A stretch of 64,000 bases of DNA from positions 496,001 to 560,000 of the forward strand of contig NZ_FNWL01000001.1 of NCBI RefSeq assembly GCF_900108095.1. The letters are read 5' to 3'. The translations under genes and the position numbers were made by a program. Shown here one piece after another: positions 13,432-18,558 of the stretch. The stretch's first letter is position 1, and every line of letters starts with the position of its first letter. The notes under the pieces are model-generated. The model was not told the origin of the DNA and made no database searches. It saw only the letters and a list, made by a program, of their open reading frames with translations. The stretch comes from Natronorubrum sediminis. Lineage in GTDB: Archaea > Halobacteriota > Halobacteria > Halobacteriales > Natrialbaceae.

Positions 13432-14922
13432 TCACGCTGGTGAATCGACGAGATCACTAATTGCCTCGGATAGCAGCGATTCGAACCCGACCGACGCGAG
13501 TCCGATGGCTAAGGCGAGCACGACGGCTCCCACGGTGACGACGACCATCGCGGAGGTGATCGTTTCCCGTCCGTTGTCGGTCCCGTCGAACTCCCCAAAG
13601 TAGATGTGATCGACGAACGGGATCACGTACCCGAGCGTGAGTATCGTCGAGATAACGACGAATGTCGCGACGATCCACAGCCCTTCCTCGAGGGCACCAA
13701 CGGCGATGTACCACTTGCCGACGAACCCCACCGTTGGCGGTAGGCCGATCATCGCAATTCCGAGTCCGGCAAAGGCGGCCGCGACGACCGGAGCACGATC
13801 TGCGATCCCGTCGAACTCGTCGATCGTTCGGGCGTCGAAACGGATCGCAATGATCCCTGCAATGAGACAGAATGCCCCCTTTACGAGTCCGTGTCCGAAG
13901 AGTTGGATCACCGATCCGAACACTGCGGTTTCGGTCGCGACGAGCAACCCCGCAACGACGAGGCCGAACTGCGAGACCGTCGAGTACGCGAGCATTCCCT
14001 TGATGTTTCGCTGTCCGTAGGCCAGGACGTTCCCGACGAGCAAACTCACGATCGCCCCGTAGATGATGCCGTTCGTGACCAGCGGGTTCGCCGCGAGAAA
14101 ATCGACTGTGAACACGTCGAACAGGACGCGAAGCAGGGCGTAAACGGCCGCAGCCGGAAGAACGCCGGAGATGAGGGCGCTCACGGGATCAGGAGACCGA
14201 GCGTGCGTTTCGACCAGCCATCCGTGAAGGGGGACGAGCGCCACGAGCATCGCGAGTCCGACGGTCATACAGACGAACGAGGCGATCACGACTGGTTCGG
14301 TGTACCCGATCGTCTGGAACGTGCCGGCGAGTTGTTGGGCATCGCTCGAACCGGCCATCTGCGCGGCGACGAGAACTCCCAACAGGTAGACTGCGGTTCC
14401 GAACACCGTCGTACGTCGGTAGCCGGTCGCGGCGTCCCTCGTCCCGTCTTTGTCCCCGCACTCGACCAGACGACCCGTTGCGACGATCAGAACGAGCAAG
14501 AACCCGGCGGTCCCGAGCAGGTCGTCCGAGAAGACGACGCCGAACACGGCCGCGGTAAACAGCAGATACGATGCGTGAAACCGGCGTCCGTGCGGGCCAG
14601 CCGTTCGAGTGTATCCCAGTATCCCGAGCGTCAACACGACGTCGAGGAGTCCGACGGTTGCAGATAACGCGTCGGATCGGACCGAGAACCCGAATCCGCC
14701 GTCGAAGCCGAGGCGGTACGTGCTCGCGCCCTCGAGGATTAACAACACGGCGAGCGCGGTCGTCAACGCGCCAGTTATCGAGATCAGTATAGCGGAGAGG
14801 AGCCAGTAGCGATCGAACTCGTCGCCGTCACCGTCGCCGTCAGTTGAGACAAGTCGAACACCGAGAGCGCCGGCCGCCGGAACGGCGATACTGGAGAGCA
14901 TCAGCAAGCCGGCGAGAGTCAT
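13432..14922 (-). CDS. Antiporter-like (NuoN/MrpD) membrane subunit, degenerate proton-channel residues
   Basis: The 496-residue protein has about 13-14 hydrophobic helices and belongs to the Proton_antipo_M family shared by complex I and Mrp antiporters. The family segment VPLHGWLVETHARSP is clear, and the broken-helix lysine Lys348 (HGLVKGAF) is kept. However, the usual TM5 Glu is Leu (FLLVL for FxEL), the TM7 Lys is Leu (LVALVPLH) and the TM8 Lys is Ala (LPAAAVYALLR). It is the last gene of a three-gene operon; its ATG 14922 overlaps the previous stop (ATGA). It may be structural rather than ion-translocating. Confidence 0.85.
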   Translation of the reverse strand: MTLAGLLMLSSIAVPAAGALGVRLVSTDGDGDGDEFDRYWLLSAILISITGALTTALAVLLILEGASTYRLGFDGGFGFSVRSDALSATVGLLDVVLTLGILGYTRTAGPHGRRFHASYLLFTAAVFGVVFSDDLLGTAGFLLVLIVATGRLVECGDKDGTRDAATGYRRTTVFGTAVYLLGVLVAAQMAGSSDAQQLAGTFQTIGYTEPVVIASFVCMTVGLAMLVALVPLHGWLVETHARSPDPVSALISGVLPAAAVYALLRVLFDVFTVDFLAANPLVTNGIIYGAIVSLLVGNVLAYGQRNIKGMLAYSTVSQFGLVVAGLLVATETAVFGSVIQLFGHGLVKGAFCLIAGIIAIRFDARTIDEFDGIADRAPVVAAAFAGLGIAMIGLPPTVGFVGKWYIAVGALEEGLWIVATFVVISTILTLGYVIPFVDHIYFGEFDGTDNGRETITSAMVVVTVGAVVLALAIGLASVGFESLLSEAISDLVDSPA

Positions 14923-16688
14923 TCGACGACCACCCCGACGGTCAGCGCCACTACGAGACAACAGATTAATGCGAGGTATCGGTACCAGACGTTCGGCGCA
15001 ACTCCGAGGGATCCGGCGACACCCGACGCACGCTCTCGGTATTGTTCGCCGATGTCGTCCGGGAGCGTCCGCGCGATCGCTTCGTCCGGTGCGCTCACCG
15101 TTTCGATGGTCCTCCGTCTGGTCACTCGCTCGGCGGCAGCGAGTGTCCCGAAAACCGCCTCGGTCGCCGTGGCCGCGCGCTCGAGTGCACTGAAGACGAG
15201 CGGATCTCGAATCGCGTCGATATCGGTGCCGCCGTCGAATCGCTCGAAGAGCGGACGGCCCGCGAGAAAGACGATCGTTCCGGCCCCGAACAGCGCCACC
15301 TTCTCGAGAACGTGTCGCTGCGAGTAGGGCTCGGTCGACCACTCCGCGGCGGCCGGAAGCAGGTCGAACAACAGCCCGTAGGCGAGGCCGATGGCGATAC
15401 AGGCGACTGCGACTGGAAGCATCGTGAGCGCCTGTCCAGCAGTCGCGTCTCGGAGCCGCGTCTCCTCACCTCGGCGAATCGCGTAGTACCCGAATTTCCA
15501 GAACGAGACGATCGTTCCGACGGCCCCGACTAAGAGGAGCCACCGAAGCGGCGCGTGTCCACCCTCGAGCGCCGCATCGAGGACCATTCCCTTGCTGACG
15601 AACCCGTTGGTCCCGGGGACCGCGGTGATCGACGCGGCGGCTACGAGGAAGATTCCCGTGGCGACCGGCGCGTGAAGGCCGAGGCGGCCGCCGTTTTGAA
15701 GACGGCCCGTTCCGGCCCGCAAGACGATGAGCCCGGCGACCATGAACAGGAGTCCCTTGAACAGGACGTTATTGAACAGATGGGCGAACGCGCCCGCGAT
15801 ACCGAGCGAGGAGCCGATACCGATCCCCGCGAGGATGTAGCCCACCTGTGCCTGAATGTGATAGGCGAGCAGTCGGCGCGCGTCCTTCTGTGCAAGGGCG
15901 TATCCGGCACCAACGATTGCCATGACGCCGCCGACGTACGCGAGTACGAGGTTCCCCTCCGGGAACGCGCGGTAGGCCGCGTAGACGGCGAGCTTCGTCG
16001 TATACGCCGAGAGAACGACGGAGACGCCGACGTGGGGACTGGCGTACGTATCCGGGAGCCAGACGTGGACGCCGATGATCGCCGCGTTGATCCCGACGCC
16101 GATACCGACGGCCAGTGCGGGCAGTCCGCTCGAGACGCCGTCACCGTAGTGGAGCGCGTCTGTTCCACCGCCCTGTGCGACGACGTGGAGGGCGAGTCCA
16201 GCCGCCAGAATCGCGCCGCCGATAGCGTGGACGAGCGCGTAGCGAAAGCCGACGCGAACCGCGTCGCCGCCGTGAAGCCAGACGAGGATCGTACTCGCCA
16301 GTGCCATGAGTTCCCACCCGACGAGCAATCCGAGCCAGTCGCCCGCGAAGACGGCCCAGATCGCCGCGCCGGCGTAGCCGAGCGCGGCAACAACGTGACG
16401 ACGATCGCCACCAGTCACGGCCAGATACCCGATCGCGACCGTCCCAAACGCGGTGAACGCGAGTCCGGTGACTCGGGCCGCCGGATCGATCGCGACCGGA
16501 ACGATGACGAACTCGAGGAACGTCCACGATCCGTGCGTTCCCGTGGGTGCGGTGAGCGTCCACGCCAAGGCGAGGACGTAGGCTGTGATTCCGGCGACGA
16601 TTCCTGCCCGTCGACCGGCGAAGAGCGCGAGGAGTGCGGCGAGCCACACGACGAACGCCGGCGGAATCGCGTACACGGCGTCGATCAC
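14919..16688 (-). CDS. Antiporter-like (NuoL/MrpA-D) membrane subunit
   Basis: The 589-residue multi-pass protein is of the Proton_antipo_M family. Glu126 (GWELMALAS, TM5), Lys232 (TTKLAVYA, TM8) and Lys311 (NNVLFKGLLF, TM12) are in their expected places, while the TM7 lysine is replaced by Asn201 (GINAAIIGVHVW). A hydrophilic C-terminal region of about 100 residues precedes a last helix. The GTG start at 16688 overlaps the upstream stop as GTGA, and the gene's own stop overlaps the next start, so all three are co-translated. It probably forms the central ion channel subunit of an unassigned complex. Confidence 0.87.
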   Translation of the reverse strand: MIDAVYAIPPAFVVWLAALLALFAGRRAGIVAGITAYVLALAWTLTAPTGTHGSWTFLEFVIVPVAIDPAARVTGLAFTAFGTVAIGYLAVTGGDRRHVVAALGYAGAAIWAVFAGDWLGLLVGWELMALASTILVWLHGGDAVRVGFRYALVHAIGGAILAAGLALHVVAQGGGTDALHYGDGVSSGLPALAVGIGVGINAAIIGVHVWLPDTYASPHVGVSVVLSAYTTKLAVYAAYRAFPEGNLVLAYVGGVMAIVGAGYALAQKDARRLLAYHIQAQVGYILAGIGIGSSLGIAGAFAHLFNNVLFKGLLFMVAGLIVLRAGTGRLQNGGRLGLHAPVATGIFLVAAASITAVPGTNGFVSKGMVLDAALEGGHAPLRWLLLVGAVGTIVSFWKFGYYAIRRGEETRLRDATAGQALTMLPVAVACIAIGLAYGLLFDLLPAAAEWSTEPYSQRHVLEKVALFGAGTIVFLAGRPLFERFDGGTDIDAIRDPLVFSALERAATATEAVFGTLAAAERVTRRRTIETVSAPDEAIARTLPDDIGEQYRERASGVAGSLGVAPNVWYRYLALICCLVVALTVGVVVE

Positions 16689-18298
16689 GCGACGATCACC
16701 CCAACGCTCGTTTCTGCGACTCGGACGGCGAGTTCGAGAACCGCCAGCCGGTCGGGCCACACGCCCAGTACGACCGTGAGGCAGGCGAGCGCGACGAGCG
16801 GGAGGAGGACGGTAGCCCGGCTTTCAACGCCGTTCGGGGCTACTCGTTCCCACCGCTGTCGGTTCCGTAGCTCCGCGCTCGCGTGTCCACCGTCCGACAC
16901 TCGCTCGGATCCGTCACACCCGCCCAGCGGACCGTCGATCAGCGGCTTCGGATCCGACTTGGACGGGCTCTCGAAAAACGCGCCGTAGACGATCGGCCAG
17001 AAGTACGCCACGTTGAGTGCACCTGATACGACGAGCAGCGCCGGTACCAACGGATGGACGCCGCCACCGCCGACGAGCAGGTACCACTTGCTCGCGAACC
17101 CCGCGAACAGCGGGATGCCCGCGAGCGAACAGGCACCGATCGCGAAGGTGCCCATCGTCAGGGGCATCCGTCGCCCGACGCCGGCGATCTCGGAGACCTT
17201 CGTCACGTCGGTTTCGATCGCGAGCGCGCCGACGCAGAAGAACAGCGCGAGCTTGGCCACTGCGTGGGCGGGAATGTGAACGAGTCCGCCGACAACGCCG
17301 GCCGGAACGAGCAGCGCGATTCCGAGAACGACGTAGGAAAGGTGTGCGATCGTCGAGTAGGCTAACCGCCGTTTGAGGTCGTCCTGTCGGAGCGCGAGGA
17401 CGCTCCCGAGGAGGATCGTTACACCGGCGGCGACCGCGAGCGGCGTCGCCATCCCGAGATCGCTCGTCGCCTCCGGACCGAACACCTCGAGGACGGTCCG
17501 TGCAATGCCGAAGACGCCGGATTTGACGACGACGACGGCGTGAAGCACGCCCGAAACGGTCGTCGGCGCGACCATCGCCTTCGGGAGCCAGGCGTGGAGG
17601 GGCATCACGGCACCTTTGACCGCGAATCCGATCAATAGACTTCCCAGCGCGAGCGTGGCGACCGTCGGATTCGACGCGGCCGCATCGGTCAACCCGGGGA
17701 TCCCACCGGATTCGAAGCCGATCGTCCCGGCGAGTCCGTAGACCAGCACCGTCCCGCCGACGACTAAGGTACCACCAGCGATGACGTAGACAACGTACTC
17801 GTACCCGATGCGTCTCGCCTGCTCTGTCCCCTTGTGGGCGACCAACGGATACGTTCCTACCGTCGTCAACTCGTAGAACACGACGAGCACGAGGAGATTC
17901 GACGCGAACGCAACACCGAGGCCCGAACAGACACTCAGACACAGCGCGGCGGTGTAGCGCGTTCGGTCGTCCAACCCCATTTCTCGAGCGTATCCGACGC
18001 TGTATATCGATGTCACGACCCACAGTCCGCTCGCGACGAGCGCGAAGAGCATACCGAGCGGGTCCGCGCTGAGCTCGAGGTCGACGCCAGCAACGAGCGT
18101 TCCGAGGTTCGTCGTGGGGTTCTGTCCGGACATCACGTCGGGAACCATACTCACGACCAGTCCAAACGTGACAAGCGCTGCAACGATCGGTGCCCCGTCG
18201 CGGACGGCCGGCCGATGACGCCCGCCGACTACGACGGCAATCGCGACGAACCCGATCAGAATTGTGGCGAGCGGTCGAAGCGAGTGGACCTCCGTCAT
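16685..18298 (-). CDS. Antiporter-like (NuoM/MrpD) membrane subunit, full set of channel residues
   Basis: The 537-residue protein is the first gene of the triplet and has a complete set of proton-pathway residues: Glu143 (FYELTT), Lys228 (AVKGAVMPLH), Lys259 (VVVKSGVFG) and Lys349 (HAVAKLALFF). FAGFASKWYLL is the usual late-helix motif. An approximately 50-residue hydrophilic loop precedes the final membrane segment. A GTG two codons upstream (18304) is an alternative start. Complex I and Mrp use such subunits for H+ or Na+ translocation; none of the other Mrp (A/B/C/E/F/G) or Nuo subunits is encoded nearby. Confidence 0.88.
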   Translation of the reverse strand: MTEVHSLRPLATILIGFVAIAVVVGGRHRPAVRDGAPIVAALVTFGLVVSMVPDVMSGQNPTTNLGTLVAGVDLELSADPLGMLFALVASGLWVVTSIYSVGYAREMGLDDRTRYTAALCLSVCSGLGVAFASNLLVLVVFYELTTVGTYPLVAHKGTEQARRIGYEYVVYVIAGGTLVVGGTVLVYGLAGTIGFESGGIPGLTDAAASNPTVATLALGSLLIGFAVKGAVMPLHAWLPKAMVAPTTVSGVLHAVVVVKSGVFGIARTVLEVFGPEATSDLGMATPLAVAAGVTILLGSVLALRQDDLKRRLAYSTIAHLSYVVLGIALLVPAGVVGGLVHIPAHAVAKLALFFCVGALAIETDVTKVSEIAGVGRRMPLTMGTFAIGACSLAGIPLFAGFASKWYLLVGGGGVHPLVPALLVVSGALNVAYFWPIVYGAFFESPSKSDPKPLIDGPLGGCDGSERVSDGGHASAELRNRQRWERVAPNGVESRATVLLPLVALACLTVVLGVWPDRLAVLELAVRVAETSVGVIVA

Positions 18299-18558
18299 CG
18301 ACACTCTCGAGTGAATACCATGTCGCTGAATCGCACCACCGTCTCACGCTCCGTCCGAGCAATCACCGCTGAAACGAGGAAAAATGGTGACCTGTTTAAC
18401 ACTGTGACCCCAACCGTAGACGCGATACATAGCACCTAATGAACCCGGATGGAATAAGGTGTTGATAGGCTATCGACGGCATTTTGAGGTCTGATATCGA
18501 CGCGCTCGAGTCCGGTTTTCGAACGAGTTCGATCTGGCCCGTTTCTACGGCCGTCCCC

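Follow-up and report, generated by a model that had tools for sequence, protein, structure and literature searches.

A stand-alone operon of three Mrp-type antiporter subunits in haloarchaea, with an altered MrpD-like member

What can three antiporter-like subunits do when they are encoded by themselves, apart from the rest of an Mrp antiporter or of complex I? The question is raised by a stretch of 64,000 nucleotides from Natronorubrum sediminis (genome G000), called hereafter the window, in which three genes, T1, T2 and T3, are arranged in tandem on the minus strand, each overlapping the next by four bases. The stop of T1 (16685–18304) and the start of T2 (14919–16688) share a GTGA at 16685–16688, and the stop of T2 and the start of T3 (13432–14922) share an ATGA at 14919–14922. 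PF00361 (Proton_antipo_M) is the sole Pfam domain of each product (E 6e-53 to 9e-34). The genes and overlaps are those of the original prediction, which had the open reading frame of T1 right but placed its start at an ATG (18298) instead of the GTG at 18304.

The operon does stand alone in the window, as had been proposed. A tblastn search of the window with Mrp E, F, G, MbhDE, B and C queries detected no further Mrp subunit, and all other PF00361 genes of the 3.78 Mb genome lie outside the window, in a complex I set with three Nuo antiporter-like subunits (C1:442–447 kb) and in a full Mrp cluster on a 245-kb contig (C5:156–165 kb). This cluster comprises E, F, G, MbhDE, B, C and three antiporter-like subunits of the classes D1, D2 and D3; its G gene, for which Pfam gave no match, was called by place and length. 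The neighbours of the trio are a 3-hydroxyacyl-CoA dehydrogenase gene about 250 bases upstream and an enoyl-CoA hydratase gene about 450 bases downstream. An integrase-like gene (weak Pfam match; L011 13126–14256) comes immediately after the full Mrp, and the 245-kb contig carrying both is perhaps a plasmid. Annotated haloarchaeal plasmids carry related Mrp subunits; a plasmid search with T3 returned nothing close, the best haloarchaeal records being less than 41% identical.

The complex, which the original prediction had left unnamed, can be named: its subunits are those of the antiporter arm of an Mrp with three antiporter-like subunits, T3 belonging to the D1 class (MrpD-like), T1 to D2 (MrpA-N/NuoL-like) and T2 to D3 (MbsH'-like). 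D1 profiles scored 204–247 bits against MrpD, MbhH and MbsH, versus 142–155 bits against MrpA, and for the T3 structural model (pLDDT 88) the first three fold matches were MrpD, with TM scores of 0.91–0.92. D2 tends to MrpA and NuoL, and D3 to MbsH'. The same three classes occur in the haloarchaeal three-antiporter Mrps, such as the C5 cluster of N. sediminis and the type II clusters (L054–L061), whose D2, D3 and D1 are about 44–53% identical to T1, T2 and T3 and follow the gene order of the window operon. Bacterial Mrp (PDB 6Z16, 7QRU, 7D3U) has two arm subunits, whereas the trio has three; T3 is folded like MrpD, and T1 resembles the N-terminal part of MrpA and keeps the arm residues, but MrpA-C, B, C, E, F and G and the Na+ coupling point are missing. 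From the MBS and MBH arms (PDB 6U8Y, 6CFW), where MbhH and MbsH match D1 and MbsH' is the best match of T2, the trio differs by the absence of a hydrogenase or sulfur reductase module and of MrpC, B, E, F and G homologues. The MrpD- and MrpA-N-like subunits are present as in Mrp (CPA3), but none of MrpB, C, E, F, G and MrpA-C/MbhDE is encoded in the same operon, and by these defining small subunits the trio is not an Mrp member. The trio adds a new variant to the Mrp/complex I superfamily; a literature search found no description of such stand-alone trios, although one may still exist.

The channel residues had been predicted to decay along the operon. Those named were correct, namely E143, K228, K259 and K349 in T1 (numbered from the ATG at 18298), E126, N201, K232 and K311 in T2, and L143, L226, A257 and K348 in T3. 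However, K349, K311 and K348 correspond to the TM11 Lys (MrpD Lys337) and not to the TM12 channel Lys, which had been missed and is present in all three proteins (T1 K404, in the same numbering; T2 K366; T3 K403). T1 has the full channel set, as claimed, with the TM5 Glu, TM7 Lys, TM8 Lys, TM11 His/Lys/Phe and TM12 Lys. T2 does carry Asn201 in place of the TM7 Lys, and is extended at its C-terminus by a predicted long lateral helix followed by a last TM helix; the lateral helix is modelled at low confidence (pLDDT about 50) and serves as a hint only. T3, to which Lys348 alone had been left, also has the TM11 His344 and the TM12 Lys403. Missing from T3 are the TM5 Glu (Leu143, codon 14494–14496, aligned with MrpD Glu137), the TM7 Lys (Leu226, codon 14245–14247, aligned with MrpD Lys219) and the TM11 Phe gate, the counterpart of MrpD Phe341 being Cys352, whose codon (13867–13869) ends the GHG..KGAFC motif at 13867–13896. 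The Lys403 codon is at 13714–13716 (all on the minus strand).

Comparison of the 12 full-length stand-alone T3 proteins (that of the window and 11 orthologues) with the D1 subunits of complete clusters revealed a sharp split. The TM5 Glu, the TM7 Lys and the Phe gate were lost in 12 of 12 stand-alone proteins, versus 0 of 31 complete-cluster D1 proteins, all 31 of which have the Glu/Lys pair. The pair was replaced by L/L, V/L, L/S, Q/V or L/N. At the gate, Cys was found in all 12 stand-alone T3, whereas Phe occupied this position in all 31 complete-cluster D1 and in all D2 and D3. A shift of the charged residues in the alignment, which had been put forward as a possible refutation, does not account for the missing TM5 Glu and TM7 Lys: the stand-alone D1 alignment contains neither a conserved TM5 acidic residue nor a conserved TM7 Lys. 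The other two supposed losses are of a different kind. All complete clusters have Asn at the TM7 position of D3 and Ala or Thr at the TM8 position of D1, so that Asn201 of T2 and Ala257 of T3 are ancestral and not signs of decay, and the trio shares both with haloarchaeal Mrp. The D2 sets kept every channel residue. There is no graded decay along the operon; T3 alone changed upon the separation of the trio from Mrp.

The changes in T3 were unevenly placed. Among the positions invariant in Mrp D1, 8 of 33 were lost and 14 kept in the trios for TM4–8 (T3 110–275), versus 1 of 33 lost and 28 kept for TM9–13 (T3 276–440), the single loss in the C-terminal half being that at Cys352. Fisher tests gave p values of 0.027 (lost) and 0.0007 (kept), which are descriptive, since the halves were compared after the alignment had been viewed and the sequences are related. 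In structures of bacterial Mrp, MrpD Glu137 and Lys219 adjoin MrpC and the bound cations, where H+ and Na+ are proposed to be coupled, and Phe341 has been put forward as the gate on the cytoplasmic proton path of MrpD (PMC7419157, PMC9568556). MrpD Lys392, which couples to MrpA, aligns with Lys403 of T3. The pair facing MrpC is lost and the Lys coupling to MrpA is kept; T3 therefore changed on the face of the missing partner and kept its face to the other arm subunits. The proposal that T3 is a structural subunit holds in that its N-terminal channel is abolished. It is not a mere remnant, however: the C-terminal half-channel is conserved as in Mrp, H344, K348, C352 and K403 are invariant across the stand-alone T3 proteins, and its dN/dS is 0.11–0.18.

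Searches of 125 genomes of the family and 391 of the class showed three sorts of loci, namely complete clusters, complete clusters with extra subunits, and stand-alone trios. Complete clusters are ordered C-D1-D2-D3 (type I) or C-D2-D3-D1 (type II). Trios in the order of the window were found in five genomes (G104, G110, G113, G115, G124), with a sixth copy cut by a contig end (G121); trios ordered D1-D2-D3 were found in G090–G093, to which a broken copy in G087 can be added, and others in two further families (G293, G222). A fragment lies at a contig end in G035. Once the Cys/Phe split had been noticed, a search was made with a degenerate DNA motif encoding the gate of T3 in its Cys form. It matched in 15 distinct genomes, 13 of them among the 125 of the family and 2 among 290 outside it (10 of the 391 in the class set), always at T3 genes; it retrieved every known trio and the G035 fragment, and the reversed-pattern control gave zero matches. 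In the 13 motif genomes whose flanking DNA was inspected, no Mrp small subunit was found near the trios. The alternative that the operon always belongs to a full Mrp or Nuo cluster is true of the relatives of 43–53% identity but not of the Cys-gate T3 loci examined, and the trio stands alone in relatives as well as in the window. The loci are recognised by D1, D2 and D3 genes free of small subunits and by a D1 that has the GHGxxKGAxC gate motif and neither the TM5 Glu nor the TM7 Lys, all of which the window operon displays.

Phylogenetic trees placed the stand-alone trios in one clade (support 99/95 for D1 and 100/98 for D2), and a concatenated tree from which the trait columns had been removed recovered this clade with a support of 100. 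The D3 tree did not resolve it, and L164 and L166 form long branches among its members. It is nested among complete Mrps and adjoins L162 and L163. Since the trios form one clade, loss of the module and loss of the residues make up one linked event rather than repeated convergence. The two adjoining loci (L162 in G361, L163 in G393) are complete Mrps with five antiporter-like subunits, D2, D3, D1, an extra D1 and an extra D3. In the D1 tree this additional D1, which has retained Glu, Lys and Phe, branches as the sister of the stand-alone D1s. All three genes have long open frames in most carriers, in three families, and in three pairs of trios their dN/dS was 0.09–0.18, that of T3 being no higher than those of its partners; T3 is under purifying selection. 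The anatomy and the history of the stand-alone trio are well supported. A broader scan of contigs gave, among the matches listed, mostly bacterial Mrp. A further observation concerns an operon of the Sinorhizobium sp. C101 plasmid (L180 4984–13131) ordered nuoJ-nuoK-D-hypothetical-D-nuoM, then nuoA and nuoB, a complex I of unusual make-up that includes Mrp-like subunits.

The explanation we prefer, with middling confidence, is that the operon would encode an Mrp antiporter arm that lost its Na+ module together with the matching contact residues, and that is probably an electrogenic H+ carrier. The lost cation module would be made of MrpE, F, G, MbhDE/MrpA-C, MrpB and MrpC. Because the contact residues facing MrpC are lost in T3, the complex probably moves H+ without Na+ exchange. 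T2, T1 and T3 may form a row with T3 as its end cap. Protons would enter from the outside via the intact subunits and travel along the central Lys/His axis to the cytoplasm, partly via the C-terminal half-channel of T3, which may be ungated. The net effect would be an electrogenic movement of H+, driven by the membrane potential and not tied to any Na+ exchange of its own, and would serve either regulated H+ uptake for pH homeostasis or the drive of a partner protein encoded elsewhere. Several points count against this proposal: an ungated route for H+ would carry a high cost unless it were regulated, T3 also lacks the TM8 Lys, which leaves the H+ route to its C-terminal half in doubt, the losses of residues and of module go back to one event only, and the full Mrp of the carriers might share subunits with the trio. 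A more specific version, in which the three subunits alone would provide a regulated, potential-driven H+ path with a Cys end cap, as a pared-down relative of the membrane arm of complex I that is no longer coupled to a cation, is possible but doubtful; equally tentative is its view of the MrpD-type subunit as an ungated end cap with a conserved Cys in place of the gating Phe.

If the partner were an enzyme, the trio could be the membrane motor of a pmf-driven reaction catalysed by a protein encoded elsewhere, as DabB is for DabA, and this we regard as rather unlikely. DabB is, like T3, an antiporter-like protein outside Mrp and complex I that has lost the TM5 Glu (Ile151), it is pmf-driven (PMC13144422), and T1 retains a full channel. 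Yet DabAB has one such subunit with an obligate DabA, whereas here there are three, and DabA (PF10070) is absent from N. sediminis and present in only 2 of 12 carrier genomes tested, which led us to reject a DabAB system as such. No neighbour is conserved between the groups of trios. A conserved operon partner was looked for in the flanks of 13 trio loci and rejected: the flanks are mostly unrelated (amylase, glycoside hydrolase 15, PAS kinase, FAD oxidases, lactate permease and an HD protein, besides the acyl-CoA enzymes of N. sediminis), and groups share none, save for the synteny of close genomes. A DUF7475 gene comes after the Natronococcus-type trio in three genomes (L049 13012–13419, L050 13385–13795, L051 5063–5470); it accompanies only some trios of this type and none of the others.

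Alternatively, the trio could be a second arm that borrows MrpC, B, E, F, G and MbhDE from the distant full Mrp and forms a variant Na+/H+ antiporter. Each of the 12 carrier genomes that are at least 90% complete has a single MnhE gene and hence one full Mrp, and the trio adjoins complete Mrps in the trees. But in MrpD the Glu/Lys pair that the trio has lost points towards MrpC and the cation site (PMC7419157, PMC9568556), and the full Mrps of carriers that were examined (L011, L174–L179) each own all three arm subunits, so we judge such borrowing improbable. Still less credible is an extra arm of complex I that would replace or add to NuoL, M and N: the fold is the same and NuoM models give good scores with T1 and T3, but N. 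sediminis already has three Nuo antiporter-like subunits, each protein of the trio is nearest to an Mrp subunit (D1, D2 or D3), T3 no longer has the residues that would be turned to a NuoK/MrpC-type subunit, and the operon holds PF00361 genes only, with acyl-CoA enzyme neighbours and neither NuoA/H/J/K nor hydrophilic arm genes. Least likely of all is a decaying, functionless Mrp remnant, for although carriers are scattered (13 of 125 genomes of the family) and one copy is broken, the dN/dS values of the three genes largely rule out a pseudogene, and the long frames and the four invariant T3 residues speak against it too. The broken copy is that of Natronococcus amylolyticus DSM 10524 (G087 C38; L053/L068), in which D2 is truncated and D1 cut short; related genomes have it intact.

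How antiporter-like subunits are coupled to the driving module, in complex I as in Mrp, is a matter of debate, and point mutants that cripple the enzyme have been the basis of most tests. The stand-alone clade amounts to a natural experiment: it has lost the cation module and carries changes of the Glu/Lys pair and the Phe gate in the one subunit that faced this module, with the remainder of the trio still under selection. The pattern agrees with the published interpretation in which the Glu/Lys pair of MrpD has its role at the cation coupling point and Phe341 acts as a gate (PMC7419157, PMC9568556). The trio is a small three-protein system in which H+ conduction by the arm could be measured free of Na+ coupling.
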